The notes under the pieces are model-generated. The model made no database searches. It had not been told where the DNA came from and saw nothing but the letters and a program-made list of their open reading frames with translations. Below are positions 48,917 through 64,000 of a DNA stretch of 64,000 nucleotides, piece by piece. The translations under genes and the position numbers were made by a program. Every line of letters begins with the position of its first letter. Position 1 is the stretch's first letter. The stretch comes from an uncultured Lachnospiraceae bacterium (GTDB lineage: Bacteria; Bacillota; Clostridia; Lachnospirales; Lachnospiraceae): assembly GCA_947174505.1 (NCBI GenBank), contig CAMWJF010000003.1:1-64000 (forward strand). The letters are read 5' to 3'.

Positions 48917-49441
48917 TTACTCAAGCGGGCTGCTCGTCTCTTTTTTTATTGCCAACAGATCATATAGATATTTTTTACCGTCCGCATCATGCCGTACCAG
49001 CATCCGGGCAAAAAAAATATTATAGCGGTAAACCTCACCGTTCTTATCCTCATATACTGGCAGGGCAAACCGTACATCATAACGATACCACCCATATTTT
49101 GCATTCTTCTCATGTTTCTTTTTCTTATTCTCCGAGTGTTTCCTGTTCGTGGCAATGCGAATTAATTCAGGAATTCCCTGCGCCGCATTTGCCTTCGCTT
49201 TTGCAACAGCCCCTTTTAGGGCAAGCCTGCTTTCAGATCCTGCATATTCGTCCGGAAAACTGCTGGAAATGAATATCTTCTCAGATGTTTCTGCAATCTC
49301 GTAAAATTCTCCGACATATTCTTTAAGGTAATCTTCTACCTTCTTCCAGTCCTCCCTCTTTCTTCCCTTAAAGCGGATATCATTGATCAAAACAATCCTT
49401 TCCCCATTCAAGCCAACAATGATATTTATGTTTCTATCCAT
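48917..49441 (-). CDS. Barnase/EndoU/ColicinE5-D/RelE-like nuclease-type protein (stand-alone)
   Basis: 174 aa. The N-terminal part starts MDRNINIIVGLNGERIVLIN. A helical middle with KAVAKAKANAAQGIPELIRI-like character follows, and a Lys-rich stretch (NRKHSENKKKKHEKN). The C-terminal beta-rich end is WYRYDVRFALPVYEDKNGEV and RHDADGKKYLYDLLAIKKET followed by SSPLE. That final segment resembles the end of the phage/MuF-associated Barnase-EndoU-ColicinE5/D-RelE-like nuclease domains in Clostridia, which usually sit on large polymorphic or phage proteins. Here it is stand-alone. The assignment comes from remembered family patterns, so moderate confidence. It is driven by the promoter in repeat E; an antisense promoter lies at its 3' end. 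Confidence 0.55.
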   Translation of the reverse strand: MDRNINIIVGLNGERIVLINDIRFKGRKREDWKKVEDYLKEYVGEFYEIAETSEKIFISSSFPDEYAGSESRLALKGAVAKAKANAAQGIPELIRIATNRKHSENKKKKHEKNAKYGWYRYDVRFALPVYEDKNGEVYRYNIFFARMLVRHDADGKKYLYDLLAIKKETSSPLE

Positions 49442-49729: not shown

Positions 49730-52700
49730 TTACTCCAGCAGGAACATCTGTGCGCGGTTCAAAGATACACTGTCCATGCTGAGCGCTTCCACACTCTGCC
49801 CCGCTCTCGTGTAACGGCTCGTGAGCAGCACGCAGATCTGCGATGTTTCATCCTCCCCGTTCTGCAAAGCCGCCAAAGGCGCTTTGATGCGGTACACCTT
49901 TCCCGGTACGATCCCGTCAGCCACCTCCACCAGACGGTTGTTTTCCACCGCCCAGACAGGGCTTGTAAAGACCGTATAGTCTGCGGTATTGATTCCGCCG
50001 CCCGGCTGCAGGAGCTCCGCATCCGCAGGCGCGCCCGCATTCTTATAGTAGAGGGAAAGCTCCGTGACCTTGTCAACGGCAATGTTGTTATCCGTGAACC
50101 GGAAGTACACGTCCACCGTCTCACCTAAAATACCGCCCTTTGCATCCCCGCCATCCTTGAAAGCCACATCGAAGGGTACCGTGACGCTCTCCACCTTTGC
50201 CACACCGTTAAAGCCTGCCACAATGGAAACCTGCGCTTTATGCACACCGGCATTGTAGGCTGCTATCAGTGCGTTCACGAAAATCCTGCACTCGTCTATG
50301 CCGTCTTCTTCCGTCGGAGCGTCTTTGTCTTTATCATAATAGTAAGGGTACGCCGACTGTCCTACATACACCACATTTCCCCTACTGTATACATAGTAGT
50401 TATTTCTTCCATCACGGGGCGACACGCTGTAACCGCCCGCACTGTAGCCATCATCTGAGAGTTCCTCATCAAACAGGGTAAACCATGCCGTGGCATACGG
50501 CTGCCCCGCATCCCTTGCCGTGCCGATATCCAGCAGATAATCAGGCGCTGAGAGCTCCGTAATGTCGGAAAGCTGTACCCTCGTGTCTATCTCATACGGC
50601 CATCTGGCGATCGTGCCGTCATTGGCGCGGTCCAGCAACAGGCTGGGTATCCTGTCAAACATGCCCGCTTCTATACCCTCATAGCGGAATTTAACCCCGC
50701 TTCCCATGCCTAATTTCCCGTATGTCTGTTCATTCTTCTGTCCCAGAACTTCCGCCGAAAGGCCAACCCTTCCCTTATCCGCCGACGCTCCCGCGGAAGA
50801 GACAACTACACTCCCGCCCGCGTCGATAAACGTATTAACGGCATTCATCACCGTGTCCCCGGGATTTCCGCTGTCGCCAAATCCCAGCACCACCACATCC
50901 CAGAGAGAGAGATAATTCGCGTTTTTGGCAAGCTGGTCCGCCAGATCGCCCGGCGTAACCGCCTCGATATCCCACTTCATGTTAAGAAGCGCTTCCGCTC
51001 CGCCCAAATAATGGGCTAATGTAGAATTTGCGATCGTCTCATACTGCCTCTGGATATTGGTATCATTCTTCGACGTATCGTCAAGAACCTGCAGTACTCG
51101 GATCTTAGCCTCATCACTGCCGCTCAAGGTAAAGCAGCCCTGCATGGAGGCGCGCCGATACCGATTATCGGTGTCCGTCACTTCCAGCTTCCAGGGCACA
51201 ATGCCAAAACTGATTTCATTGAAATCGACGCTTACCTTACCGCCGTCCCCAGACTCCTCGCGTTGATAACCGAAATATTCCTCCTCTGGCGCGAAGACAC
51301 CGTCATAATTCAGGTCAAGATACAGGTGTCTGTCCAGGCTTCCCCTGTAAGTTTTGTCTTCTCCCATCCTGTCACTGGTTATGCGGTACTCAATCGTACC
51401 GCGGAGAACGCCTGCTTTCTCCGGCACAGGCTCCGCCGCAATCATACCTGCTGCAGTCTGCTCCTCTCCGGAATCATTTTCACCATTTTCATAAAGTCCG
51501 ATCTTTGGCCGCAGGGCGTTTAACTGCATCGCAAACATAGCGCTGCTGTGCACATCCTCAATGGTATAGATACCAACGCCTTTTTCCTCATCATCGTCCT
51601 CATCCGACCTGCCCATGGAGATCGCTTCTTTGAGGAAGTCATACATCTGCGTGTCTGAGGCAATGTATTCCGTGTTGATATCCTCTTCATCCGCCTTTCT
51701 GGCGCTCCTGCCCTTAAAGCAGTCGTTCTCCACCACGATGGGATAGCCAGCCCGCAGATAGTCTAAAAGCGCTTCCTTTTTCTGCTCCGTGATGTCGCTT
51801 GCGTCGTATCTGGCCTCACCATTTGCCACGCGGTCACCCGTGTGGTAAACCTTACCGTTCAGCTCTTCATCGTTGTAAACAGCCTGCATTTTACCGTCTT
51901 TGTCCCGCTCATGATAGAGACGCTGTCCGTCCAGGCCGATGAAGATCATGTTGTAATCCGCATTTATATCCTGGTAGCTGGTGTTAAACGCCGCCACTGA
52001 TCTTAACGTAGTATTAATCGTTATCGCCTTTGCGCTTCTGAGAATCTGCTGCCCTTCCCCATCCCGGTCCTTCCTCTGCCAGAACAGGACAACATTCCCC
52101 TTATCATTCTCATGGGGATGCAGATCAGAGTCCATGTTCGCTGTCGGCTGCAGCTCCAGAATCGACAGATCCTTATACTCCCCGACCAGTCCAAGGGAAT
52201 AGTTGATGATATACTGTACCGCCATCGCCTTGCTGACCTTCTCGGAAATTTTCTCATCCTCGGACAGCATGACATTCTCCGCCCGGATTGCCGCCAGCAC
52301 CTCGCTAAAGCCCGACTTCGCCTCATCCTTATCCATCTCCTTCGGGAAGTCATCTCCCACCAGTGGCGTTCCGTTTACGATATAAACATTTCGGTTTACA
52401 TAATGATAGTCATTATCCTTCTTATTCGGATAATCCTTAGAGTCCTGATCGACATTCATCAACACACTGCCTGCCAGATCATCGGATTTCTCCATTTCAT
52501 TATAGAAGGCGGTGAGATCCTTTTTCAGAAAAGCCTTGGCCAGCTTCTGATACTTGGAATCCGCATAATTCTCCGCATCCTCTATCACACCATAATCGAC
52601 GATGATGGGTTTTGACTCCATCACCACACCATACAGCAGGCGGGATATTACCGTGTCGGAAATATCTGCCAGTTCATCCGCGCCGCTTCCCTCCGCCTCC

Positions 52701-55234
52701 TTTTTGACATAAACCTTCTGCGCGTCCGGATCAAGATACAGTCCACTGCCATCCTCCAGATAGACAAGATCTGCATCCTGCACCATGTCATATGTCACGT
52801 CGCCCGCAAGTACAGTGTTTACCGTGATCGCAAAATCATCAGATGCATTGTCCTGCTTGCTCAGAGAATTAAACACGTAGCGCCTCAGAAAATCATTTCC
52901 GCCTGTACACCGTATATACACGGGCGCGTTCTGCACCTCTATATAATGTACGGCCCCGCTTTCCGCTGCCCGCACGCTGTCAGACTGTGTATCCGCTTCT
53001 TCTGTACCAGTATCCTCCGTCCCGTCAGCCTGTGACACAGCTCCCGTCATCGCGACAACGTTTTCCACGGTGCGGCTTCTGGTAATCTTATACATGCCCT
53101 TACCTTCACCCACGTATTCAAACTGCCCTTCCAGCGCCGGTTCTTCGTCATAGACGTCCGCATCTGTCCCTGCTGCATCCAGGTTATTCTGGAAGAAGCT
53201 CTTTTCTAACAGGTAACTGTCATAAGGACGAGGTATACCCTCCTCTGCGGAAACCGGAGCAGCCTCCTTGACCTGATATAGGAACTCCTCTTCCTCAGAC
53301 TCGACATATGTGAACTTTAAGATGCAGTATGTACCATTCTCCCGCAGTACAGGCTCGGGCGTTTCAGGCGACTCTGGCTCTGTCGGCTCGGGATTCGGTG
53401 TCGGATTGGGTTCCGGCTGCGGTTCTGGTTCTGGCATCGGATCAGGATCCGACTGCGGTTCCGGTTCCGGTTCTGGCATCGGATCAGGATCCGGCTGCGG
53501 TTCCGGCGTCAGACCAGGATCCGGCTGCTCCGGCTCCGTACTCACACAAAGATACCAACCGCCCTTAGAACCAGCCTTTTTCAATACAGACTGCGTCCGA
53601 AACGCTGCATCTGTGGTCTGAGACAGTGCCGGTTCCTGCTCCGGCGCAGGCTCCGGATCGTTTGGCTGTTCTGGTGCAGACCCGCCTGGCTGCTCGGGCT
53701 CCGTCGGATTTTCCGGATCTGTCGGATTCTCTGGATTCTCCGGGTTCGTCGGATTCTCCGGGTCTGCCGGATTCTCTGGATTCTCCGGATTCGTCGGATT
53801 CTCCGGCTCTTCCGGATTCTCTGGATTCTCCGGGTCTGCCGGATCCTCCGGATTTGTCGGCTCCTCCGGATCTACAGGAGCTGTCGGCTCCCCCGGGTCT
53901 GTCGGATTCTCCGGCTCTTCCGGATTTATCGGCTTTTCCGGCTCTTCCGGCTTCGGCTCAGGGCGCGGGATTCCCTTAAATTCCCCGAGTGTACACATAT
54001 ATTTATATACGCCGTTCTCAACATAATACAAACCGGTAGCGTCCGTATACTCCCCAAATGCGCTTATCACATCATCAGGTTCGCCAACGACACTCTTTAT
54101 TACCTCAGCACGGTAACCGCTCATACCCTTCACAGGTCCTTCAAAGATTACCTCATAATCTCCCGCGCCTTCCGCAAAGGTATAAATCCCTTCCAGCGGC
54201 GTGACCGCCTTAGCAGAAGCACTAAAGAGCATACTCCCTTCGGGCTGTCCCGTCAGATTATAGTCAAATCCCGCACGCGCGGGAAGGCCGCCTGTGTCCG
54301 CACTGGCATCAGGTCTCTTCTCCACACGGGCATAGAGTCTCCCTGTCGGATAGGGAACTTCGTTGGTCAATATTCCGTACTCATCATGCTTCACTTCGGC
54401 TGGATCGAAAATTTTACTCCATACACTGCCCCTCAGATCCTCGCCGGTTCCGCCATAAGCCTCCTGGTAAGTGATTCCGCTATAACCGCTCGAAATGACT
54501 ATGTCAGTCAACTTTTTCCTGTCAGGATATTTATAGAACTCCTCTTTGATTTCCTCCCCATTCCCCTTAAATATGCGAAAAAGATCTTTCTGGATCGGGG
54601 CCTGACCCGGCGCAAGATAGCCAATCGTACCCAGCGAAAAATCATATCTGTTACCGTTGATCTCAGCGTACGCCTTTCCGGGCACAATATCCAGAATAAC
54701 GAAGGGATTGTCCTCGTCATGCTCTTCCACGACCTGTTTGATACCGCCGAAGGACTCCCTCGCCAGCACCTCAGGCATGGGCGCTTTGTCATAAGGTGCC
54801 ATATATAGACCTGTCACCACAAGCGCTGCTGCTGCCGCCACCGCTACAGCGCGTCCGAAGACTTTTTTCACGGACACACGTTTACGCGGCCTGTAAGGCT
54901 TGATCCGCTGTACCTGTACCCCTTCCGGATACTCCTTGCTGTCTCCGCTGCCGCCGTTTTGCGCACAAGCTTCGCGCCTTCTGCTCTCGTTTTCCTTCTG
55001 TAGCTCCTTGATCAGCTTCCGCAGTTCTCTGTTCGTCTGCACCTTTTCACAGTCAGACACACTGCCGCTTTCGGATGCCGTACCGCCCTTTTTATCTTTG
55101 GAAGCACGGATTCGCCAAAGCGCTGCAGCCGCTGTCGCCGCCCCAAATAAGAACGCAAGAAACAAAGCGATCGGATTTATCGGGCTTTTATCAGTATTTC
55201 GCCTTACAAACGATTTCCTTTCGTTTTTCCCCAT
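49730..55234 (-). CDS. Giant membrane-anchored surface protein, DUF5057-like, with proline-rich stalk
   Basis: 1834 aa. Two hydrophobic segments near the N-terminus (about 21-41 and 129-145) bracket a charged stretch; the rest lies outside the membrane. Residues about 160-425 form a folded domain. A Pro/Glu/Asn low-complexity stalk (about 428-545 and 565-630; units ENPTDPE, PDPMPEPEPE) spans a length that could cross the cell wall. Downstream, about 640-1834 is a large region with features of DUF5057-type proteins (LWDVVVLGFGDSGNPGDTVM, GGSVVVSSAGASADKGRVGL, and a C-terminal beta-domain ending VSLNRAQMFLLE). I assign DUF5057 by recall of the family's features in Clostridia, so it needs checking. 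No LPXTG is visible. It is last in the pilin-like cluster, with its own possible promoter. Confidence 0.75.
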   Translation of the reverse strand: MGKNERKSFVRRNTDKSPINPIALFLAFLFGAATAAAALWRIRASKDKKGGTASESGSVSDCEKVQTNRELRKLIKELQKENESRRREACAQNGGSGDSKEYPEGVQVQRIKPYRPRKRVSVKKVFGRAVAVAAAAALVVTGLYMAPYDKAPMPEVLARESFGGIKQVVEEHDEDNPFVILDIVPGKAYAEINGNRYDFSLGTIGYLAPGQAPIQKDLFRIFKGNGEEIKEEFYKYPDRKKLTDIVISSGYSGITYQEAYGGTGEDLRGSVWSKIFDPAEVKHDEYGILTNEVPYPTGRLYARVEKRPDASADTGGLPARAGFDYNLTGQPEGSMLFSASAKAVTPLEGIYTFAEGAGDYEVIFEGPVKGMSGYRAEVIKSVVGEPDDVISAFGEYTDATGLYYVENGVYKYMCTLGEFKGIPRPEPKPEEPEKPINPEEPENPTDPGEPTAPVDPEEPTNPEDPADPENPENPEEPENPTNPENPENPADPENPTNPENPENPTDPENPTEPEQPGGSAPEQPNDPEPAPEQEPALSQTTDAAFRTQSVLKKAGSKGGWYLCVSTEPEQPDPGLTPEPQPDPDPMPEPEPEPQSDPDPMPEPEPQPEPNPTPNPEPTEPESPETPEPVLRENGTYCILKFTYVESEEEEFLYQVKEAAPVSAEEGIPRPYDSYLLEKSFFQNNLDAAGTDADVYDEEPALEGQFEYVGEGKGMYKITRSRTVENVVAMTGAVSQADGTEDTGTEEADTQSDSVRAAESGAVHYIEVQNAPVYIRCTGGNDFLRRYVFNSLSKQDNASDDFAITVNTVLAGDVTYDMVQDADLVYLEDGSGLYLDPDAQKVYVKKEAEGSGADELADISDTVISRLLYGVVMESKPIIVDYGVIEDAENYADSKYQKLAKAFLKKDLTAFYNEMEKSDDLAGSVLMNVDQDSKDYPNKKDNDYHYVNRNVYIVNGTPLVGDDFPKEMDKDEAKSGFSEVLAAIRAENVMLSEDEKISEKVSKAMAVQYIINYSLGLVGEYKDLSILELQPTANMDSDLHPHENDKGNVVLFWQRKDRDGEGQQILRSAKAITINTTLRSVAAFNTSYQDINADYNMIFIGLDGQRLYHERDKDGKMQAVYNDEELNGKVYHTGDRVANGEARYDASDITEQKKEALLDYLRAGYPIVVENDCFKGRSARKADEEDINTEYIASDTQMYDFLKEAISMGRSDEDDDEEKGVGIYTIEDVHSSAMFAMQLNALRPKIGLYENGENDSGEEQTAAGMIAAEPVPEKAGVLRGTIEYRITSDRMGEDKTYRGSLDRHLYLDLNYDGVFAPEEEYFGYQREESGDGGKVSVDFNEISFGIVPWKLEVTDTDNRYRRASMQGCFTLSGSDEAKIRVLQVLDDTSKNDTNIQRQYETIANSTLAHYLGGAEALLNMKWDIEAVTPGDLADQLAKNANYLSLWDVVVLGFGDSGNPGDTVMNAVNTFIDAGGSVVVSSAGASADKGRVGLSAEVLGQKNEQTYGKLGMGSGVKFRYEGIEAGMFDRIPSLLLDRANDGTIARWPYEIDTRVQLSDITELSAPDYLLDIGTARDAGQPYATAWFTLFDEELSDDGYSAGGYSVSPRDGRNNYYVYSRGNVVYVGQSAYPYYYDKDKDAPTEEDGIDECRIFVNALIAAYNAGVHKAQVSIVAGFNGVAKVESVTVPFDVAFKDGGDAKGGILGETVDVYFRFTDNNIAVDKVTELSLYYKNAGAPADAELLQPGGGINTADYTVFTSPVWAVENNRLVEVADGIVPGKVYRIKAPLAALQNGEDETSQICVLLTSRYTRAGQSVEALSMDSVSLNRAQMFLLE
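53338..53560 (-). repeat. Pro/Glu repeat DNA, second stalk segment
   Basis: Low-complexity tract of GGxTCxGGx-type units coding PEPEPEPQSDPDPMPEPEP-like sequence. Repeats keep the reading frame, so length variation between strains is expected. Confidence 0.85.
53650..53960 (-). repeat. Pro/Glu/Asn repeat DNA, main stalk segment
   Basis: Tandem 9-bp and 18-bp units (GGATTCTCC-like on the plus strand) coding ENP, TDPENPTNPENPENP and similar. About 100 residues long, all in frame within the giant gene. Confidence 0.9.
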
Positions 55235-55307
55235 ATGTAATACCCTCTCTTTTACCAGGCAAATATCCTTTCACTCCGCGGTTTTCAATCTACACTTGCT
55301 CCTTTTT

Positions 55308-55337
55308 ATGGTACTGTGCCGCATTTCCTGATGTCAA
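55308..55337 (-). promoter_or_regulatory. Possible promoter of the giant surface-protein gene
   Basis: TTGACA (55332-55337), 18-base spacer, TACCAT (55308-55313; four of six matches) on the minus strand in the 267-base gap after the 1101-aa gene. Nothing resembling a riboswitch aptamer was recognised there. Confidence 0.45.
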
Positions 55338-55388
55338 CCGCTACATCTGCCATTGTTATGCCGTCATCGCCACTAAATCCGCCGCCTC

Positions 55389-55416
55389 GCGCCGTCACCC
55401 CCCATGGTTACGGCGC
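55389..55416 (-). repeat. GC-rich hairpin in the gap before the giant gene
   Basis: GCGCCGT (55389-55395) and ACGGCGC (55410-55416) form a perfect 7-bp stem with a 14-nt loop. No T-run follows. It may separate expression of the pilin-like and surface genes. Confidence 0.4.
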
Positions 55417-55501
55417 AGCTCTTCGGACTGCCTTCACTCAGGCACAGTGACTTAACAGACAGTAAACCCGTTACCGTTCAGCCTTTGGTTCCGCTGTTGT
55501 G

Positions 55502-58500
55502 TCAGTTTACCTTCGTCCAGCCTGTTGCCCCGTCCGTGTACTCGAAAGTACCAAACTCCGAGTTCTCGTTATATCTTCCTACAAATGTAATCCTGTGTAT
55601 ATTTCCGCTGTGCTCATATTTCACACTGGCATTCCACTGAAGCCAGTTCTTCGCACTCTCCCCGTAAATATCCGTCATTGCATACGTTAAATGCTCTGAA
55701 GTACAGTCTATCTTTGTCACACCACCTTTGAACGGGAAACCACTCTCCGACGGCAGCGGGAAGTACATCTTAGAAGGCGTATTATCTACCAGCACACCTT
55801 CCAGATTGGTCACAAGATCCGTCTTGTAGCTGGTGCTGTTTCCCTTCTTCCATGTCCATTCTTTCTGACCCGGATTCCATGTATAAGTTCCATAAGATAC
55901 AACTCTTATCTTGTGGTTATTTACATCCCACTCATTTTCCCTCTTCTCCGTGCGGAACTCTATCTCATACGCATCCCCGTTCTTCTTACAGCTCACGATG
56001 AACGCAGGTACATTATTGGCACTCTGCATATTGCTGTCAAAAAGTTCCAAAGTGCGGGTTATCTCTCCTGTTCCGTCCGCAAACGGGAAATCAACGTCCG
56101 TAGGCAGCGGGAAGTCGGCCTGATAGCTGCCGCCGTTATAGTCAAACCGCCGGATCGTGAAGTCTTTCTCCGTGGTACTGCCACGTTTGATGCATTCCCA
56201 CTTCTTTCCGTTTTCCCCGCACTTATATATGCCGTAGGAATGAACCAGAATCTTTTGCGATCCTGCACGGTATTCCTGTCGGATAGGTTCTACCTCCCAG
56301 GCATTTTCCGTCTTGATATAACGATAACGGACATAGCTGAAAGTTAAATCCTCTGTCCATGAATTCCCATCCCTCATCGCTTTTACGGTTAATTTACTAC
56401 TTGAAGTCTGCCAATCCAGATTCTGTATATTCGGGAACAGTGGACTATTCTTCATTTCCTTCGGCAACGGGAACATCGCCTGCCCCTTAAAATCGCTGTG
56501 GTTGATTTCCATCGTGAACTCATCGGTAATCTCCACATGGATTGTGCTGTCGTCAAATTCATAGTACCGCTCTTCCCGCGGCAGATTCGGGAAATCAAAG
56601 CCATCGTAGCCTATAATCTCATAATGGCCCGGATCCTGATTTTTATACGTCATGCCGGGAACAATGTGATAACTGCCACAGGCCTTCTGCTTATTATTGT
56701 CACTGTTCAGCTTCATAAACATACTGCCTCTGGGATCGATCTGCACCGCGCCGTCCGCCAGTGTATTGCTGCCCTGATATGTCTTGGATTCATCGTCATA
56801 ATAATACACTTTGTTCCACTGTGACTGGCTGTTTCCCTCTCCTTCATAGAGACTGTTGTACATCTTATTCCAGACGGAACTATCATCCACGATATTCTCA
56901 TATTTGGTGGGTCTGATCTCTCCCACAATGCCGCTGCCGAGACCTACCGTGAAAATATTAACAGGATCATAAGTAATATTTTTCCCAGTGTACTCAACCC
57001 CTTTATATTGGTAGGTAACCTTCGGCTTATCCAGCTTGGCGTAAAACACCTTTCCGTGCCGGTATCTGGTTCCCACGTACCCGTAAGGCTTGCCCGTATC
57101 CAGATGTGAGAAATATTCCTCCCGTATTGTGGCATTGTCATCCGCATAGCCGCCCTGTCCCGGCACATATCGGTCCTCTGCTATGGGAAAAATCGCCTGC
57201 ATATAGAAGGTGTAGCTTCCGTTCAAGTCCAGATCAAACAGGTCGGGACAGATACGGTAGTTGTTACCGCCGCCGATGGTATAATGCAACAGCACTTTGT
57301 CCGGCTCCCTCCCGGAATTATCCACTACACGGATAGCGGTCACATACTTGGAAAAATCCGTGGGCAGCCCGTCACGTACCGACTCATCCAGCGTCTGTTC
57401 GCCATATTTCAGCTTGCCCTTGTACGGTTCCGCATTATCCTTGCTTTTCGCTACCGTCAACGTAATCTCACCGTGCACATCTGTATATAGTCTGTTTTTG
57501 GACAGCTCCGATGTCGCGGCGATCTTGATCTCCGTGCCCACCTCTGTGCCTGCTTTCACACAGTATTTTGTCTCCTGCTTACAGTCTCCTGCATCTACAA
57601 TATCAACAAACTCCGCCCCCTGCGTAATCCGCCAGTCAACCACGTGAAAGTCATGCGAGATATCCGCCGTACAGCCGCTGCACTGTACGCCCAGCTTTTC
57701 GCCCTCGACAACTGCACCGATGGTAAATTCATTGCCCACGCTGACCTCAAGCGGTCCGTTATCCGCATCCGCATCGCCCGTCTTACTCAGAGATACCGCC
57801 CTTACGCGTTTTATGTAAACCACAAGTGTGCAGGACGCGGGGTTTCCATCCGAATCCACAGCATTGGTTGTAATCATCACGTCAAGTGTTCCCGCCGGTT
57901 CGTCTGTCGCCACCTGCAGGATGCCGTTCGCCGCATCCGTAAACACAGTTCCGCCCGTGGGACTGCCGGACGACACCAGCGACCAGGTGACACTCCTGTC
58001 CGCCACGTTATCTCCCGTCACCTTGGGCGTGGAAAAATGATACGTCTCGCCGGGTTCCAAAATTACCCCCGCGTCCCTTGGCGTGACAGACAGTGTCTTC
58101 TTCTTATTTAAAGGCGCAAGCTCCGCGTCGTTGACCCCTACCTTATTGCGGATGGTCACGTTATTGGAAGTCACGTACTCCTTTCTGCCGTCCAAAAAGG
58201 TCAGGGCAAGCTGCACCACGCGCTTCTCTTCCACCTGGCTCAAATCTACCGAAAAGTCCGTCACACGCTCCGCCAGCACTACCCAGCCTGCCGCGGCGGG
58301 GTCTGTGGGGTCAAACGCCGGGAAATGAATGGCCGCCGTATCCACGTCCGTAGACTGCACATCCAGCTCCGCATAGTAAAGCGTTTCCGCGTCCTTACTC
58401 CAGTAAAAATGATAGTGCTTATTGCCGTTTCCCGCGTCCACCGTCTTAGTCGGCGTGCCACCGGGAACCGCAGCGGGCGTTTCCTCCACCACACCGTTAT

Positions 58501-58807
58501 ACATAATCAGGCTCTTATCCTCCGGCGTAAAGGTAAACTCCGCATCCTTCAAAGCCTTCTGCGTGTTTCCGCCCGCATCATACCCCACATAATTGACACT
58601 TCTGGTCGTATCGATCAGCACATCCGACATCTGGTTCAGGGAAAGCTGCGCTTCCTGCTGCACATTGATATCACTGTTGGCCGACGCGTAGCTTCTGGAA
58701 CCGACCACAATAAACGCGCACACCGTCAGCACAACGATAGACAGGATTACTGTCGCAATCAACACTTCCACTATAGTAAAGCCCCTCTGATCCTTTCTCA
58801 CACGCAT
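55502..58807 (-). CDS. Very large prepilin-like protein with immunoglobulin-like domains
   Basis: 1101 aa from ATG 58807 (GGGGTGAG upstream). The prepilin leader is short and basic (MRVRKDQRG) with cleavage expected after Gly; the mature start FTIVEVLIATVILSIVVLTV has the required Glu5. The first 230 residues form a pilin-like domain (LNQMSDVLIDTTRSVNYVGY typical of GspJ-like minor pilins). A Big2-like bacterial Ig module (LSVTPRDAGVILEPGETYHF ... VTWSLVSSGSPTGGTVF) follows at about 240-350. The rest (about 350-1101) is a long beta-rich region, with a repeated theme of DVDFPFADGTGEITRTLELF and ESGFPFKGGVTKIDC. Pilins are usually under 200 aa, so this is exceptional. Confidence 0.8.
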   Translation of the reverse strand: MRVRKDQRGFTIVEVLIATVILSIVVLTVCAFIVVGSRSYASANSDINVQQEAQLSLNQMSDVLIDTTRSVNYVGYDAGGNTQKALKDAEFTFTPEDKSLIMYNGVVEETPAAVPGGTPTKTVDAGNGNKHYHFYWSKDAETLYYAELDVQSTDVDTAAIHFPAFDPTDPAAAGWVVLAERVTDFSVDLSQVEEKRVVQLALTFLDGRKEYVTSNNVTIRNKVGVNDAELAPLNKKKTLSVTPRDAGVILEPGETYHFSTPKVTGDNVADRSVTWSLVSSGSPTGGTVFTDAANGILQVATDEPAGTLDVMITTNAVDSDGNPASCTLVVYIKRVRAVSLSKTGDADADNGPLEVSVGNEFTIGAVVEGEKLGVQCSGCTADISHDFHVVDWRITQGAEFVDIVDAGDCKQETKYCVKAGTEVGTEIKIAATSELSKNRLYTDVHGEITLTVAKSKDNAEPYKGKLKYGEQTLDESVRDGLPTDFSKYVTAIRVVDNSGREPDKVLLHYTIGGGNNYRICPDLFDLDLNGSYTFYMQAIFPIAEDRYVPGQGGYADDNATIREEYFSHLDTGKPYGYVGTRYRHGKVFYAKLDKPKVTYQYKGVEYTGKNITYDPVNIFTVGLGSGIVGEIRPTKYENIVDDSSVWNKMYNSLYEGEGNSQSQWNKVYYYDDESKTYQGSNTLADGAVQIDPRGSMFMKLNSDNNKQKACGSYHIVPGMTYKNQDPGHYEIIGYDGFDFPNLPREERYYEFDDSTIHVEITDEFTMEINHSDFKGQAMFPLPKEMKNSPLFPNIQNLDWQTSSSKLTVKAMRDGNSWTEDLTFSYVRYRYIKTENAWEVEPIRQEYRAGSQKILVHSYGIYKCGENGKKWECIKRGSTTEKDFTIRRFDYNGGSYQADFPLPTDVDFPFADGTGEITRTLELFDSNMQSANNVPAFIVSCKKNGDAYEIEFRTEKRENEWDVNNHKIRVVSYGTYTWNPGQKEWTWKKGNSTSYKTDLVTNLEGVLVDNTPSKMYFPLPSESGFPFKGGVTKIDCTSEHLTYAMTDIYGESAKNWLQWNASVKYEHSGNIHRITFVGRYNENSEFGTFEYTDGATGWTKVN

Positions 58808-58844
58808 TTGCTCACCCCGCTGCTCTTCCCACACATGCCGCCCG

Positions 58845-59038
58845 GCACACCATCTGCCTTACCCGTCTGCACGCTGCCGCTGTACCGCACACTCCTGTTT
58901 CCAGCCTCCGCCCTGCCGCCGCGCCGCACACGCTGCTTCCGCTCTGCCCCACACATCTGTTTCCACTTTCACTCTGCCACTGTGCTGTACACTTCTGTTT
59001 CCCGCTTATGCTCCACCGCACACTTCTGCCTCCCGCAC
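58845..59038. repeat. Degenerate tandem repeats between prepilin-like genes
   Basis: About five degenerate units of 30-45 bp, each built around CCGCACAC..CTG.TTCC on the plus strand, fill the gap between the 1101-aa and 200-aa genes. No credible gene. Function unknown. Confidence 0.6.
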
Positions 59039-59040
59039 TG

Positions 59041-59643
59041 CTACGGCAGCAGATTTACTTCCGACTTGCCCGTAAGCTCCGTCAGCACAATCTCATAATT
59101 CTTACTGCCCGCCTGCACATGGAGACTTTCATAAATATCGCCGCTTGACGCAGACTTCGCAAAGCCGCCGCTCGCGCGGTCAAACCGAATCTCTATCGTA
59201 TCTCCCGCCAAAAGCTCTGTCTCCGCGCCACCCTTTGGCGTGTAGGCCACATACACCCTGCCGGTACCCACCTTCTGCGGCTCCGACGGCACATACGCGC
59301 CGCTGCCGTTATCCCAGACATACATTTTCGTGTACACGTTCTGGTCCGTATCCCGGTAAAGCTCCATGTATGCCGACGACTTGCCCATCGTCGTCACCTT
59401 GCAGTCCGCGATGGCGCGCTGGATATTGTTCGCACAGCTCTTCGCGTTGGCGCCAAACACCATAACAACGGAATAGAACACCGTGCTTATGATTAGCGCA
59501 ATGATGGCGATCACAATAATCAGCTCGACTAATGAATAACCCCCGTTATCCTTTCCATAACGTTTGCTATTTAAGCATCCGCCTTCCCTGCCACGCACAC
59601 TGTCTCTATGAAGTTCGTCAGTTTTCTGCCTCTCCGCGCCCAA
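59041..59643 (-). CDS. Prepilin-like protein (GspH/GspG type)
   Basis: Up to 200 aa. The hydrophobic N-terminal helix YSLVELIIVIAIIALIISTV follows a Gly at the expected cleavage site with Glu5 present. The C-terminal beta domain (about 75-200, MYVWDNGSGAYVPSEPQKVG) is consistent with a small pseudopilin. The true start is uncertain: the TTG at 59643 gives a 34-residue leader, and a GTG at 59598 would give a short one typical of prepilins. It is encoded between the GspK-like and 1101-aa genes. Confidence 0.75.
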   Translation of the reverse strand: MGAERQKTDELHRDSVRGREGGCLNSKRYGKDNGGYSLVELIIVIAIIALIISTVFYSVVMVFGANAKSCANNIQRAIADCKVTTMGKSSAYMELYRDTDQNVYTKMYVWDNGSGAYVPSEPQKVGTGRVYVAYTPKGGAETELLAGDTIEIRFDRASGGFAKSASSGDIYESLHVQAGSKNYEIVLTELTGKSEVNLLP

Positions 59644-59739
59644 ACTTCCGTTTCCTTCCTGCTTATTTTCCCGATTGTCTTCCTGCCCATAGGACAGACG
59701 CCTTCGTTTCCACGCAAAACCACCCTGTCTGCACGGAAT

Positions 59740-62229
59740 TTACTTCTTAATCCAGTTCATATAACGGACAAGCTCGCTGTAATCGAGCACCAGATTGCCC
59801 GCGCCGTCCACATCCGGAGCCTGCGCCCCGTTCAACATACTGCCGCCGCCGTTCACAAACATGTCAATCGGCGTTCTCGTATCGCCGGTAATCTTGCTCT
59901 CTGCCTCCAGCACACTGGCCAGATCCGTACCGCCGAGTCTGATATTATTCGCCCCGGTAACGGTGATCTTTCCCTTTGCGATGATCAGCCCTGTGAAATC
60001 ACGGTCCACCGTCACGTCTCCGAAGCAGACGAGCAGCCGCAGCTTAGCCGGATCAACCCCGGTGATCCCCGACAAGTTCACATCGCCCTTCGCAAGATGC
60101 GCCTGCAGACCGGATGACGTTTCATAGGTCACATGGTTCACATGATTGTCCGTCAGGTACTGCTCTACCTCCGCCTCCTTGATGACGCTGTTAAACACAT
60201 AGTGCTTCGCCGCCTCCACAGGATCGACATCAGGGTCGGCAAGCGCCGGAGGAGCAACTTCCTTCAGGTTATAGTTTAAGCCCTTGTATTCGGCCCTGAT
60301 CTGATCAGAGAGCGCCAGCACAGCCGCATCCGTCCTGTCATTCACCACTTCTTCCGCGTTGATGCCGGTTTCCGTGTAAGCGTCGGGATCCACAGGCGCC
60401 GCCGGGTCTCCGCCATCGCCGGGCGCTCCCGCAGGCGGATTTAAAGTTGTCTGGTCAACGCCCGTCAACAATGTCACGCCGCTCGCAGAGAGCGCGCTGC
60501 TCACAAGGCTGTTGCCGAGAATCGTATACTGGTTCTTCGGATTCGCAAAGTCTCCCAACTGGAATCCACCGGAAAGATATCTGTTGAAATAGGTGTCGAT
60601 TTCCTCCCTGTTGGCGTGAAAATCATAATACTGTACAAAGTAACGCTCCGCGTTTGTCTTATCCATGACCAGATAATAGTAAAGCAGCGAGCCGCCCCGG
60701 TAAGGCGCATAAACTTTACGGATGTGATTCATGTCCGCCACACCGAACTCGCTTAAGGATTTGCCGCCCAGACGGTAGACCTTCCTGTCAAAATCCACTT
60801 CCTTAAAATCCGTGCCGTATGCGTTCTGAAAATCTGTAATATCGTTTTCCTTATCGGCATTGATGGGGTTCTGGCCGACCACACTCTCCCCCTTCAGCGT
60901 ACCGATACATTCCGCGGGCACCAGATAGGCCACCTGACCTCCCTTGACGGCGATAGACTCTCCCATCATGACAGGCGTCCGCGGCGGCAGAAGCCCGGCC
61001 TCGATCTGCGCCTTATTGTTCGCCGCCTCTGCACTGGTCGTATCCTGGCCGATGTAGGAATGCCCCGCGATCAGCAGCCGCGTTACCATCGACATATCCA
61101 CCGTGGAATCCTTGCCGTTTATGATAATGGCGCTGCTGTCCGCCGAGTCGATGGCCGCCTCTCCCGGCAGTCCGTTGGAGGTAGCATTTCCGTAACCGTA
61201 GTATTCTTTCGTGAGCGCGACCCTGCTGCCGACCCCGTCCAGCGTCATATCGTTTGCCACATATACCTTGCTGTCAAGACTCACCGCCGCGCTGTATAAG
61301 GTGATGTTTTTCGCGTACACGCGGTTGTCCTCCCCAAGCACATCCCTGACAGTCAGGCCGGAAGACGGCCCATTTACCGTAATATCTCCTTTGGAAATCA
61401 CACGCAGGGCGTCTTCCATCGTCATGGTCGTGCCGGAATCAACCAAAAAGCCGCCCTTGCCGTCCACATCCGTGCCCGCATAGACGCTGCCTTCCGTTCT
61501 GAGAATACCTGGCACCTGCACCGTAATCCCCTCATTGCCGATCAGGGAATACTGGTACAATGCATCGATGGAACCGTTATTCTCAAAGATCAGCTTCGGC
61601 ACATCCAGACAGATATCCGTCTGGACAATAGACACCCTGTCGTCGCTGTCCGTACAGGAGACATAGATATTTTTCAGGATAATGCTGTTATTGTTGACAA
61701 TCTCCATCACAGAGTCGCCGAGCGGCTCACCCAGCGGGCCGCCGTGATCCCACGCGTCCTCGTCGACGCCCACGGCGGGCGTGCCTCTCTGGAAAATACC
61801 CGCGTCCACATATGCTTCCAGCTTCGTCCTGTCATAATAGGCCGCGCCGCGCGAGGTATCCTTCAGCTTGTCAACCAATGTGTCCAGATAGGTGGTCATA
61901 AAAACGTTGGAACGCGCCTCCTCCGAGCTCAGATTATCCCAGTTGGCAAGCACATCCCGGTAAGCGACGCCCACTGCCTCGGCGGACTCCCGCCGCAGTC
62001 CCGACATCACCTGCTCCACCACTTCCTCGGCGCTGTAAAAGCTGTTCTTATTGCGGATATCCGCCACCTTTATCATATAGTTCATGTAGGCCATCCAGAG
62101 CATGGTGGTAGCCAGAATCCCGATCATCGCCATCGCTATGATTACGATAACGATAGCGGAGCCTCTGTCGTCACGCCTCTTTTTTGCCCACCTGTAAAGC
62201 TGTGCCATTTTTCCGCCTGCTCTTTTCAT
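59740..62229 (-). CDS. Large PilX/GspK-like pseudopilin lacking Glu5
   Basis: 829 aa from ATG 62229 (a later ATG at 62208 with GGCGG is possible). N-terminus KKRRDDRG then SAIVIVIIAMAMIGILATTM, a pilin-type helix whose fifth mature residue is Ile, not Glu. That is the hallmark of GspK/PilX-type tip pilins. The remainder is long: helical segments early, then (about 230-600) a beta-rich stretch with many DxG-turn repeats, and a C-terminal region (about 620-829). It is encoded between the 484-aa and 200-aa prepilin genes, the place of the GspK-like gene in many such clusters. Confidence 0.75.
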   Translation of the reverse strand: MKRAGGKMAQLYRWAKKRRDDRGSAIVIVIIAMAMIGILATTMLWMAYMNYMIKVADIRNKNSFYSAEEVVEQVMSGLRRESAEAVGVAYRDVLANWDNLSSEEARSNVFMTTYLDTLVDKLKDTSRGAAYYDRTKLEAYVDAGIFQRGTPAVGVDEDAWDHGGPLGEPLGDSVMEIVNNNSIILKNIYVSCTDSDDRVSIVQTDICLDVPKLIFENNGSIDALYQYSLIGNEGITVQVPGILRTEGSVYAGTDVDGKGGFLVDSGTTMTMEDALRVISKGDITVNGPSSGLTVRDVLGEDNRVYAKNITLYSAAVSLDSKVYVANDMTLDGVGSRVALTKEYYGYGNATSNGLPGEAAIDSADSSAIIINGKDSTVDMSMVTRLLIAGHSYIGQDTTSAEAANNKAQIEAGLLPPRTPVMMGESIAVKGGQVAYLVPAECIGTLKGESVVGQNPINADKENDITDFQNAYGTDFKEVDFDRKVYRLGGKSLSEFGVADMNHIRKVYAPYRGGSLLYYYLVMDKTNAERYFVQYYDFHANREEIDTYFNRYLSGGFQLGDFANPKNQYTILGNSLVSSALSASGVTLLTGVDQTTLNPPAGAPGDGGDPAAPVDPDAYTETGINAEEVVNDRTDAAVLALSDQIRAEYKGLNYNLKEVAPPALADPDVDPVEAAKHYVFNSVIKEAEVEQYLTDNHVNHVTYETSSGLQAHLAKGDVNLSGITGVDPAKLRLLVCFGDVTVDRDFTGLIIAKGKITVTGANNIRLGGTDLASVLEAESKITGDTRTPIDMFVNGGGSMLNGAQAPDVDGAGNLVLDYSELVRYMNWIKK

Positions 62230-62403
62230 ACCCCACACCCCATTATCCCTGTCGCTTCCGTCCATCCGCGCCGTCCGGCCTTCTCTCTGCCGTCCGCCGC
62301 GCTCTCCCCTGTCTGTACGGCTGCTGTCCGGCTCTCCCCACCGACCGCACCGCTGCTGTCAGTGGGCCGCTGTCATTTTCTCCGTCCCGGCCACTGTCCG
62401 CCG
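62230..62403. repeat. GC-rich degenerate repeats between prepilin-like genes
   Basis: The gap between the 829-aa and 484-aa genes is rich in CTGTCCG/CTGCCG-like units similar in style to those at 58845-59038. Part may be the leader of the GspK-like gene. No promoter or aptamer was recognised. Confidence 0.4.
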
Positions 62404-63858
62404 TCAGTTCGTCGTGCTTCCCCCGATCACGACCATCCGCATATCGTCGGGGAAGCCGCTGTCCGCCGCACCTTCTTTATAGACGCTGACCGTCACGTCG
62501 TAAATCAGTTCCGTAGCTTCCCCAGGCGCCGCCGCTCTTCCCATGGGGCTGCGCACGCCGTCCAGCGTGAAAATGTTCATGTCGCTCCCACCGCTCAGAT
62601 CCATGTTCGTCCCATTCACGGTAAACTGTGCAGGAAGCTCCAGCGGCGCTCCCGCCAGATAGTTTTTGCCCACCAGATTTAAACCGAGGTTCGTCTTTAA
62701 GAAAAACTTCTCTTTGTCATGCGCGGCCCCGAGCCCGTCCTGTATCTCGACAGCCGCCTTATATGCCTGCTCCGCCGCCATCAGCTGCGGGTCCGACAAA
62801 TACTCAGGATCACTCAGGTCGGGCATCCCCGGATTAGACACATCTTCTTTCTCATGCCGCTGCTTCGCGATCAGGAGATTTAAGTCAGCCCCCGAACCGT
62901 TTCTTACAATGATCTTATCGGTGATCTTATCGGGTGTGGTCGCGTCGTAGAGGGGGTAATAAAAGAGATTGACGTTGATTTTATCGTCCTTCGTCTTCGT
63001 TATCCTGCCACAGGGCATGGCGTTCACCACGTATCCGGAACCAATATCGCCCTTTGTGCTCACGACTTTGGTTGTACCGTCCAAAAGACTGTATGTAAAA
63101 TCATAAGTCTGCGTAACCACCATATCCGCCTTCGGCCGTCCATCCTCATCCACTTCCGCACTAACCGACAGCTCTATTTCTATCGTCCGGCTGAACTGGT
63201 CAAAGAAAGTATGCAGATTCTTGTAGTGAACCGCATCCTGTATTTTCTGAAACTCACTGGTAAGCATGACGTCCGAAACCCCGGCCGCCCGCAGCCTGTT
63301 CTCTATGTCATTCTTTATGTCGCTGTCCTTAAAGACACTGGCAAGTGCCGCCTGCCTGTACTTCTCCGCCTCCACAAAGGTGCCGTTTTCCTTATCGATG
63401 CTTCTGGCATCCGCCAGCGCCGCATCGTTAAACTCATTGTCATGGGTGAGGGTGCCTGTCATATACCCCCTGCCGTCCACTTCGATCTTTGCGTCGTACT
63501 CGCTGCCCTGCATGGAAAGCTGCCGCATACTGAACACATAAAGTCCCGGCGCGGGATTGCCCGAAGGATCCACCTCAAGCCCAGTCTCCTCCGCCACGCT
63601 GCCCTTAATCAGCCGGCTGTCTATCACATAGAAACCGCTCGACGGGTCGGCAAACTGCGTTTTTATCTCCTCTATATCGTATGCCTTCAGTCCCTCCATA
63701 ATGTCCTGCGCCACGGTGGTGGCACGCAGGGTCTGTCTGGACTTGATATTGATCCTGTTGGAAGAGACAAACAGATTCATAAGCGGAATCACGATAATGG
63801 CAAGTATTACTACCGCAATCAGAAGCTCCACCAAGGAAAATCCGGCGTCCTTATTCAC
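62404..63858 (-). CDS. Large prepilin-like protein (GspI/GspJ type)
   Basis: 484 aa from GTG 63858. Leader MNKDAG then FSLVELLIAVVILAIIVIPL with Glu5, a textbook type III/class III prepilin signal. The following 60 residues (SRQTLRATTVAQDIMEGLKA) continue the pilin helix. The rest is an extended beta-rich region to residue 484. A longer frame to 63936 adds an unlikely 26-residue leader. First complete gene of the cluster visible in the window. Confidence 0.8.
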   Translation of the reverse strand: MNKDAGFSLVELLIAVVILAIIVIPLMNLFVSSNRINIKSRQTLRATTVAQDIMEGLKAYDIEEIKTQFADPSSGFYVIDSRLIKGSVAEETGLEVDPSGNPAPGLYVFSMRQLSMQGSEYDAKIEVDGRGYMTGTLTHDNEFNDAALADARSIDKENGTFVEAEKYRQAALASVFKDSDIKNDIENRLRAAGVSDVMLTSEFQKIQDAVHYKNLHTFFDQFSRTIEIELSVSAEVDEDGRPKADMVVTQTYDFTYSLLDGTTKVVSTKGDIGSGYVVNAMPCGRITKTKDDKINVNLFYYPLYDATTPDKITDKIIVRNGSGADLNLLIAKQRHEKEDVSNPGMPDLSDPEYLSDPQLMAAEQAYKAAVEIQDGLGAAHDKEKFFLKTNLGLNLVGKNYLAGAPLELPAQFTVNGTNMDLSGGSDMNIFTLDGVRSPMGRAAAPGEATELIYDVTVSVYKEGAADSGFPDDMRMVVIGGSTTN

Positions 63859-63950
63859 TTTTCGCCTGTCTTCTGCTGTCGTCAAACCGCTGTCCCCCTG
63901 TCTTCTGCCGCATCTGTTCCATCCACACGGCCTCAACGTCTTCCGCGCCC

Positions 63951-64000
63951 TTACTCCTTCTGCGCGGCCTCCGCGTCTTCCGCACTATTACTCCTCTGCA
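63951..64000 (-). CDS. C-terminal end of the next cluster gene (partial)
   Basis: At the right edge the minus strand reads an open frame ending SAEDAEAAQKE and TAA at 63951. It is the tail of a gene starting outside the window, probably another member of the pilin-like cluster. Too short to identify; the Ala/Glu tail could be chance. Confidence 0.35.
   Translation of the reverse strand, partial: QRSNSAEDAEAAQKE

Follow-up and report, generated by a model that had tools for sequence, protein, structure and literature searches.

A minor pilin and DUF5057 gene block as a possible tip module of a type IVa pilus in Lachnospiraceae

The five-gene block and the pilus genes beside it

The window analysed here, a stretch of 64,000 nucleotides, comprises bases 1-64000 of its contig in the 4.26 Mb genome of an uncultured Lachnospiraceae bacterium. 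On its minus strand lie, in transcription order, open reading frames (ORFs) of 510, 841, 200 and 1110 aa and a gene for a protein of 1834 aa, which confirms the earlier note's description of four adjacent class III prepilin-like genes followed by a giant protein. The four prepilins are called V, K, H and J after minor pilin types, an assignment based on gene order, on the presence or absence of Glu5 and on profile matches that are themselves weak. The 510-aa ORF (62404-63936) holds the V/I-type minor pilin of 484 aa (62404..63858), which begins with a GTG start at 63858, has a class III leader cut within KDAG/FSLVE, carries E5 and has relatives in the same place. From M13 of the 841-aa ORF (59740-62265) runs the PilX/GspK-like K/X-type pilin of 829 aa (59740..62229; leader site DDRG/SAIVI), the proposed tip subunit; its residues from about 340 to about 735 (60061..61248, approximate limits, corresponding to positions 310-630 of the K profile) form the candidate docking region discussed below. 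The H-type pilin occupies an ORF of about 200 aa (59041..59643) with E5 and the leader site DNGG/YSLVE. The J/W-type pilin, 1101 aa from M10 of its ORF (protein 55502..58807, ORF 55502-58834; leader site DQRG/FTIVE, E5 present), consists of a small pilin part and a large grafted part, which the size distribution of J-type relatives places from about residue 235 onwards (55502..58132, limit approximate). Four class III prepilins, among them a K-type protein without Glu5, thus form a set of the H-I-J-K tip kind. Glu5 is intact in three of the four, as had been claimed, and its loss from K alone is what would be expected for a tip subunit. The Pfam family N_methyl was found above cut-off in V, H and J; the 829-aa K protein, with I5 where E5 is expected, gave no N_methyl match, so that the prepilin reading has Pfam support in three of the four pilins.

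The fifth gene (49730..55234, minus strand) occupies the slot held elsewhere by pilY1. Residues 1147-1478 of its product (50801..51796) match the Pfam family DUF5057 (PF16480, E 1.3e-30), and within this match lies a sequence pattern resembling an EF-hand loop, D1307-x-N-x-D-G-x-F-xxx-E1318 (51281..51316). Residues 405-648 form a Pro-rich linker encoded by tandem-repeat DNA (53291..54022). Between this gene and comM, outside the conserved block, lies a 174-aa ORF (48917..49441, minus strand) with a weak LPD3 match below cut-off. The five genes of the block are presumably co-transcribed; scans for promoters (20 against 13.4 in shuffled sequence, sd 3.7) and terminators (13 against 11.9, sd 4.0) were not informative.

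Pilus assembly genes, which the earlier note had suggested looking for beyond position 64000, were found directly upstream of the block. The next 10 kb past the window edge encode, on the same strand, a PilO-like protein, PilM (589 aa, probably PilM joined with PilN), a prepilin peptidase, a pilin of 158 aa, PilC, a Transposase_31-like protein, PilB and PilT. Pfam matches in this run comprise two T2SSE domains (one with MshEN), T2SSF, Peptidase_A24, PilM_2 and, in the small pilin, N_methyl. For the PilN part and the PilO-like gene, which no Pfam family matches, the call comes from position and conservation, and PilT, a 351-aa T2SSE protein adjoining pilB, is named from its size and place. The extension ATPase, platform protein, prepilin peptidase, small pilin, PilM/N/O proteins and retraction ATPase of a type IVa pilus are thus all present in the genome, so that the refuting case named in the earlier note, a genome without an assembly ATPase, platform or peptidase, does not apply. 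In layout, the block resembles the section of an operon that builds the tip of an ordinary retractable type IVa surface pilus. The earlier idea of a surface filament whose subunits carry large, possibly adhesive domains stands, but its alternative, a secretion pseudopilus of the type II kind, was rejected, since a PilT-like ATPase and a separate small pilin indicate a type IVa pilus instead.

Some further features of this genome were noted. The Transposase_31-like gene (330 aa; L010 8060-9052, contig C3 about 70060-71052) interrupts the pil genes, with pilB on one side and pilC on the other, and a gene with an HD domain (HD_5; L010 12096-13223) directly precedes pilT, possibly connecting the pilus with cyclic-di-GMP. 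Another contig of the genome, C36, encodes an orphan 185-aa pilin with an N_methyl match (L012 3837-4394); no other pilin place was found on it. PilM_2 was dropped as an order-wide indicator of type IV pili for want of specificity: 129 of 196 genomes match it, many apparently through other actin-fold proteins.

Gene order and protein properties among relatives

A search with the DUF5057 query yielded 104 confirmed stretches, 80 of which were taken as loci, mostly titled Lachnospiraceae and including one (L086) from the cultured, non-pathogenic Lachnotalea glycerini. Gene order could be assessed in the 62 loci with at least 4.5 kb of upstream sequence (18 of the 80 fall below this length and were left out), and 57 of these 62 show V-K-H-J-DUF5057 in exactly this order. 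Such recurrence argues that the five-gene block is not a product of chance. In two of the five exceptions V was not seen: the contig of L095 starts there, and L114 has an extra 519-aa frame before DUF5057. J was not recognised in L103, H was recognised elsewhere in L153, and no pilin genes were recognised in L156. The Pfam search gave a similar picture within the order: DUF5057 was detected in 12 of 196 genomes, the window's own included, and nine of the 12 have V-K-H-J-DUF5057, while the remaining three comprise a looser block (G010), a gene on a 4.6-kb contig (G042) and short, weak DUF5057-like matches beside which no pilus gene was recognised (G094). Multiple copies also occur, as two DUF5057 genes in tandem after a J-type pilin in G190 (L066 9171-14072 and 14316-19301) and as DUF5057 matches on more than one contig in G329, G223 and G395.

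The genes downstream of the block are not conserved, and this bears on the possibility, hinted at by the earlier note, that the whole module serves DNA uptake. The hint came from comM and dprA, which follow DUF5057 or its slot in the window and in G122, G046 and G208; the genome also encodes ComEC, and its five N_methyl places, four in the pilus operon and one at the orphan pilin, leave no separate comG-like set among them. Against a role in competence, neither comM nor dprA was found near DUF5057 in any of the 57 named loci with 6 kb of downstream sequence, 17 of which have topA there; dprA beside topA is a common arrangement in Bacillota. We consider a competence function very improbable, and the link to DNA uptake is not upheld by the relatives. 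In 11 loci (L126, L128, L130, L133, L139, L140, L141, L142, L145, L148 and L149), a gene that scores best as pilB (562-569 aa) comes shortly after DUF5057, in most of them with topA behind it.

Within the named loci, V has a median length of 446 aa (61 proteins), K of 780 aa (65) and H of 188 aa (63), and J falls into two sets of 170-249 aa (20 of 64) and 423-1099 aa (44 of 64), a few of the proteins counted being truncated by a contig end or a frame break. V and K are therefore generally large, and J is either small or carries a graft. Pilins are usually 120-200 aa long, and the sizes that the earlier note had taken as exceptional turn out to be the rule for V and K among the relatives sampled. 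Neither E nor D stands at position 5 of K in any of 65 proteins, and the same crude script finds E at this position in 46 of 61 V, 51 of 63 H and 60 of 64 J proteins. Similarity of K to known proteins of its type is slight, with a weak match of the window K to GspK (E 0.088) and PilX_N found in three of 58 K proteins scanned. When profiles were compared with solved structures, those of K, J and V matched pilin helices; the K profile also gave a weak match to an antifreeze protein (0.15), and the J profile extends its matches past the pilin part to two further solved chains, of a phage capsid protein (E 4.4e-9) and of a beta-glucanase (1.1e-7), presumably by way of Ig-like domains. Among 37 large J proteins scanned, F5/8C, Ig, Big_2 and cadherin-like domains occur in one or two each, so that single J-type relatives carry recognisable grafted modules; the graft of the window J had no Pfam match, the whole protein giving N_methyl alone.

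Mean column identity in the sampled alignments of DUF5057 proteins is 15-17%, despite the conservation of the loop D-x-[ND]-x-D-G-x-[FYH], which is aligned in 67 of 68 proteins. Five alignments of the whole analysis, A3 to A7, used 58 of 61, 51 of 53, 37 of 44, 36 of 57 and 48 of 55 listed rows. The loop at 1307 formed no part of any pattern used in the locus scan; residues 1608-1616 supplied one of its two patterns, and some of their conservation follows from that choice. Among the 13 DUF5057 proteins found through Pfam, the loop is strict in seven, loosened in five and absent in G094, and a pattern search recovered it in two of seven diverged DUF5057 proteins. Judged by its sequence, the loop may well bind calcium. 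Comparison of DUF5057 with solved structures gave nothing convincing (best E 0.071), and a test for internal repeats aligned residues of about 1015-1235 with 1370-1680 at a probability of 87 over 27 columns, which is suggestive only; the motifs in these parts could be read as those of amidotransferase-like alpha/beta domains.

A hydrophobic stretch starts within the first 60 residues in 66 of the 68 aligned proteins. The window protein is probably exported; it has an additional stretch before the usual one, within residues 1-125 (54860-55234), a feature common only to it and G122 among 13 DUF5057 proteins compared. The giant had been called a proline-stalked membrane protein. The Pro-rich stalk is real, and occurs in six of the 68 proteins, the window's included; the membrane part of the description finds less support, with a strong hydrophobic stretch after residue 150 and an LPxTG motif in the last 80 residues both found in none of the 68, the window protein among them. 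The N-terminal stretch could stay as a lasting anchor, of which the window protein would have two, and DUF5057 might then be a cell-surface protein at the base of the pilus, a port or anchor in the thick wall, instead of a tip component. This we regard as unlikely: the gene directly follows the minor pilins and does not lie with pilM/N/O, and no wall-binding family was recognised among those that a Pfam scan of 12 members listed.

Residues corresponding to an H-D pair at 1480-1481 and an H at 1628 are nearly invariant in most relatives and could form an active or metal site there. Such a site would suit a DUF5057 protein that acts on its own, as an adhesin or an enzyme, and leaves the cell through the pilus system much as a type II secretion substrate does; one passage of PMC7541494 likens PilY1 itself to a type II substrate of GspK. 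The window protein, however, has S1480, A1481 and A1628 at these positions and keeps the loop, so an enzymatic role cannot be general; the presence in the operon of genes for PilT and a distinct small pilin also counts against this reading. We therefore give the exported substrate a low probability, below that of a protein at the pilus base, and return to DUF5057 as a component of the tip.

Joint presence and absence of DUF5057 and a segment of K

To the conserved order can be added the distribution of DUF5057 and K across 298 genomes of the window's family. DUF5057 was found in 67 of these, two of them with weak matches, and K, at E <1e-15 (a cut-off chosen afterwards), in 82 of the 92 genomes that match it at all. 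Both occur together in 63 genomes, on one contig and 1.4-9.1 kb apart in 56 and on different contigs in seven; four genomes have DUF5057 without K. Fisher tests on the co-occurrence ignore kinship and were set aside. Each of the 19 genomes that have K alone was examined. In six of them the slot is filled by a diverged DUF5057 protein (37 to 268 bits), and in G208 by a 935-aa protein that begins with a signal-like sequence and escapes the DUF5057 profile (1.1 bits); the other 12 lack any DUF5057-like gene. Near the slot in two of these 12 are exported-looking proteins, one of 679 aa in G290 and one of 1699 aa in G392. The latter frame (L188) lies behind a J of 160 aa and a K of 189 aa and has no profile relation to DUF5057; it could be another kind of tip factor.

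The K proteins of the 12 genomes without a DUF5057-like gene have a common peculiarity, in that positions 310-630 of the K profile are unmatched in all 12. In DUF5057 loci, the K proteins are matched as far as position 700 in 70 of 70 cases. The K model was built from 58 rows, all from DUF5057-positive loci, and this training favours the joint-absence result; as a counter-check, 17 of 17 K proteins of other kinds on which it had not been trained match beyond position 310, namely seven of seven beside diverged DUF5057 proteins, which reach at least 674, and ten of ten from other families, which reach at least 665. The K of G208, a further untrained control, reaches 731. On a quick PilM tree that contains nine of the 12 genomes, we counted five changes of state, at least three of them forced by well supported branches; these changes may be gains as well as losses. 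Taken with the 12 of 12, the tree indicates that within the family DUF5057 and the K segment tend to be absent together, and that this has come about more than once. That the absence of DUF5057 goes with a changed ectodomain of a minor pilin also speaks against a DUF5057 protein seated at the pilus base.

The link between DUF5057 and the K segment fails outside the window's family. Sampled genomes of other families of the order have V and K, and most also H and J, without DUF5057, and their K proteins are long and match much of the profile outside about 400-600. Conversely, G010 has DUF5057 although its K matches at the N-terminus only. DUF5057 is thus not needed for every pilus of this kind.

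A proposed tip cap and its likeness to known systems

To account for these patterns, we propose a type IVa pilus whose tip is built by the products of this block, with DUF5057 docked on K as the outermost tip factor, a reading that we think probable. The gene run, the gene order, the prepilin motifs, the lack of E5 in K, the loop, the co-occurrence and the joint absence are its basis in sequence; the location at the tip, the docking on K and a part in adhesion would follow from them. PilD would cut the V, K, H and J prepilins, which would then assemble as the conserved H-I-J-K tip complex with the Glu5-less K on top. From this complex as primer, PilB and PilC would extend the PilA fibre, which PilT would retract. 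With the bulky portions of V, K and J confined to the tip, polymerisation would not be blocked. The DUF5057 protein would be exported, fold round its probable calcium-binding loop and dock on K, and the J grafts, with the extra modules in single DUF5057 proteins, may confer species-specific adhesion. A more specific and more tentative proposal, to which we give somewhat less than even weight, is that DUF5057 caps the type IVa tip in Lachnospiraceae as a calcium-dependent equivalent of PilY1 with a separate evolutionary origin. It would be seated on a segment reserved for it in the giant, Glu5-less PilX/K, and the two would appear and vanish together.

If this is true, pilins without Glu5 acquired a tip-capping protein with a calcium loop on more than one occasion. 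In the present case that protein would be a conserved non-pilin giant holding the PilY1 position in a bacterial family of the gut and rumen, and DUF5057 would gain its first testable role. By its match, the 1834-aa protein is a member of Pfam DUF5057, for which we found no function in the open-licence literature searched, where no paper mentioning DUF5057 or PF16480, and nothing on this system under Lachnospiraceae or monoderm pili, came to light.

Among known systems, a close likeness is offered by FimU-PilV-PilW-PilX with PilY1 of Myxococcus xanthus and Pseudomonas aeruginosa: their minor pilins are likewise four in number, seem to be of the corresponding types and include one (PilX/K) that lacks Glu5. 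Text in PMC7541494 describes M. xanthus PilX as lacking Glu5, like GspK, places it atop the minor pilin complex, and reports that PilX is required for the accumulation of PilY1 and was pulled down with it; the type IVa H-I-J-K set is described in PMC10191384 as capped by PilC/PilY1, and the same source reports that mutants in pilC/pilY1 regain pili when pilT is deleted as well. As in PilY1 systems, a giant non-pilin protein follows the minor pilins here, its gene lying beside theirs in 57 of the 62 testable loci, and it carries an EF-hand-like D-x-[DN]-x-D-G loop; the consensus of the PilY1 loop is given as Dx[DN]xDGxxD in PMC8833165. Unlike PilY1, the giant has DUF5057 and no match to PF05567, the PilY1 domain, and by that domain it falls outside the PilY1 family. 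PF05567 was likewise found in none of the 196 genomes of the order, a weak negative since the control genomes gave no match either. A passage in PMC9934059 describes PilC/PilY1 as absent in monoderms. We thus propose DUF5057 as a functional counterpart of PilY1, not as its homologue. A further difference from FimU-PilV-PilW-PilX is that V and K here are several times the usual size. Large extra domains on minor pilins are on record in PMC8179133 for GspK, at the tip, and for the beta-solenoid of Thermus ComZ; to GspK, the sequence similarity of K is marginal.

Modular pilins of the J type are already known (PMC8179133). Both this source and PMC9934059 describe, for PilB and PilC of Streptococcus sanguinis, binding modules grafted on a small pilin and predicted to lie at the tip of a monoderm pilus, and these modular minor pilins offer a precedent by which the oversized subunits here, whose ability to share one fibre the earlier note had questioned, may do so. 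The J-type pilin of the window has 1101 aa; the case with the most extra domains among those named in PMC8179133 has 860. In S. sanguinis, PilABC replace H-I-J-K and PilY1 is absent, whereas here all four minor pilin types persist, joined by a fifth protein that is not a pilin.
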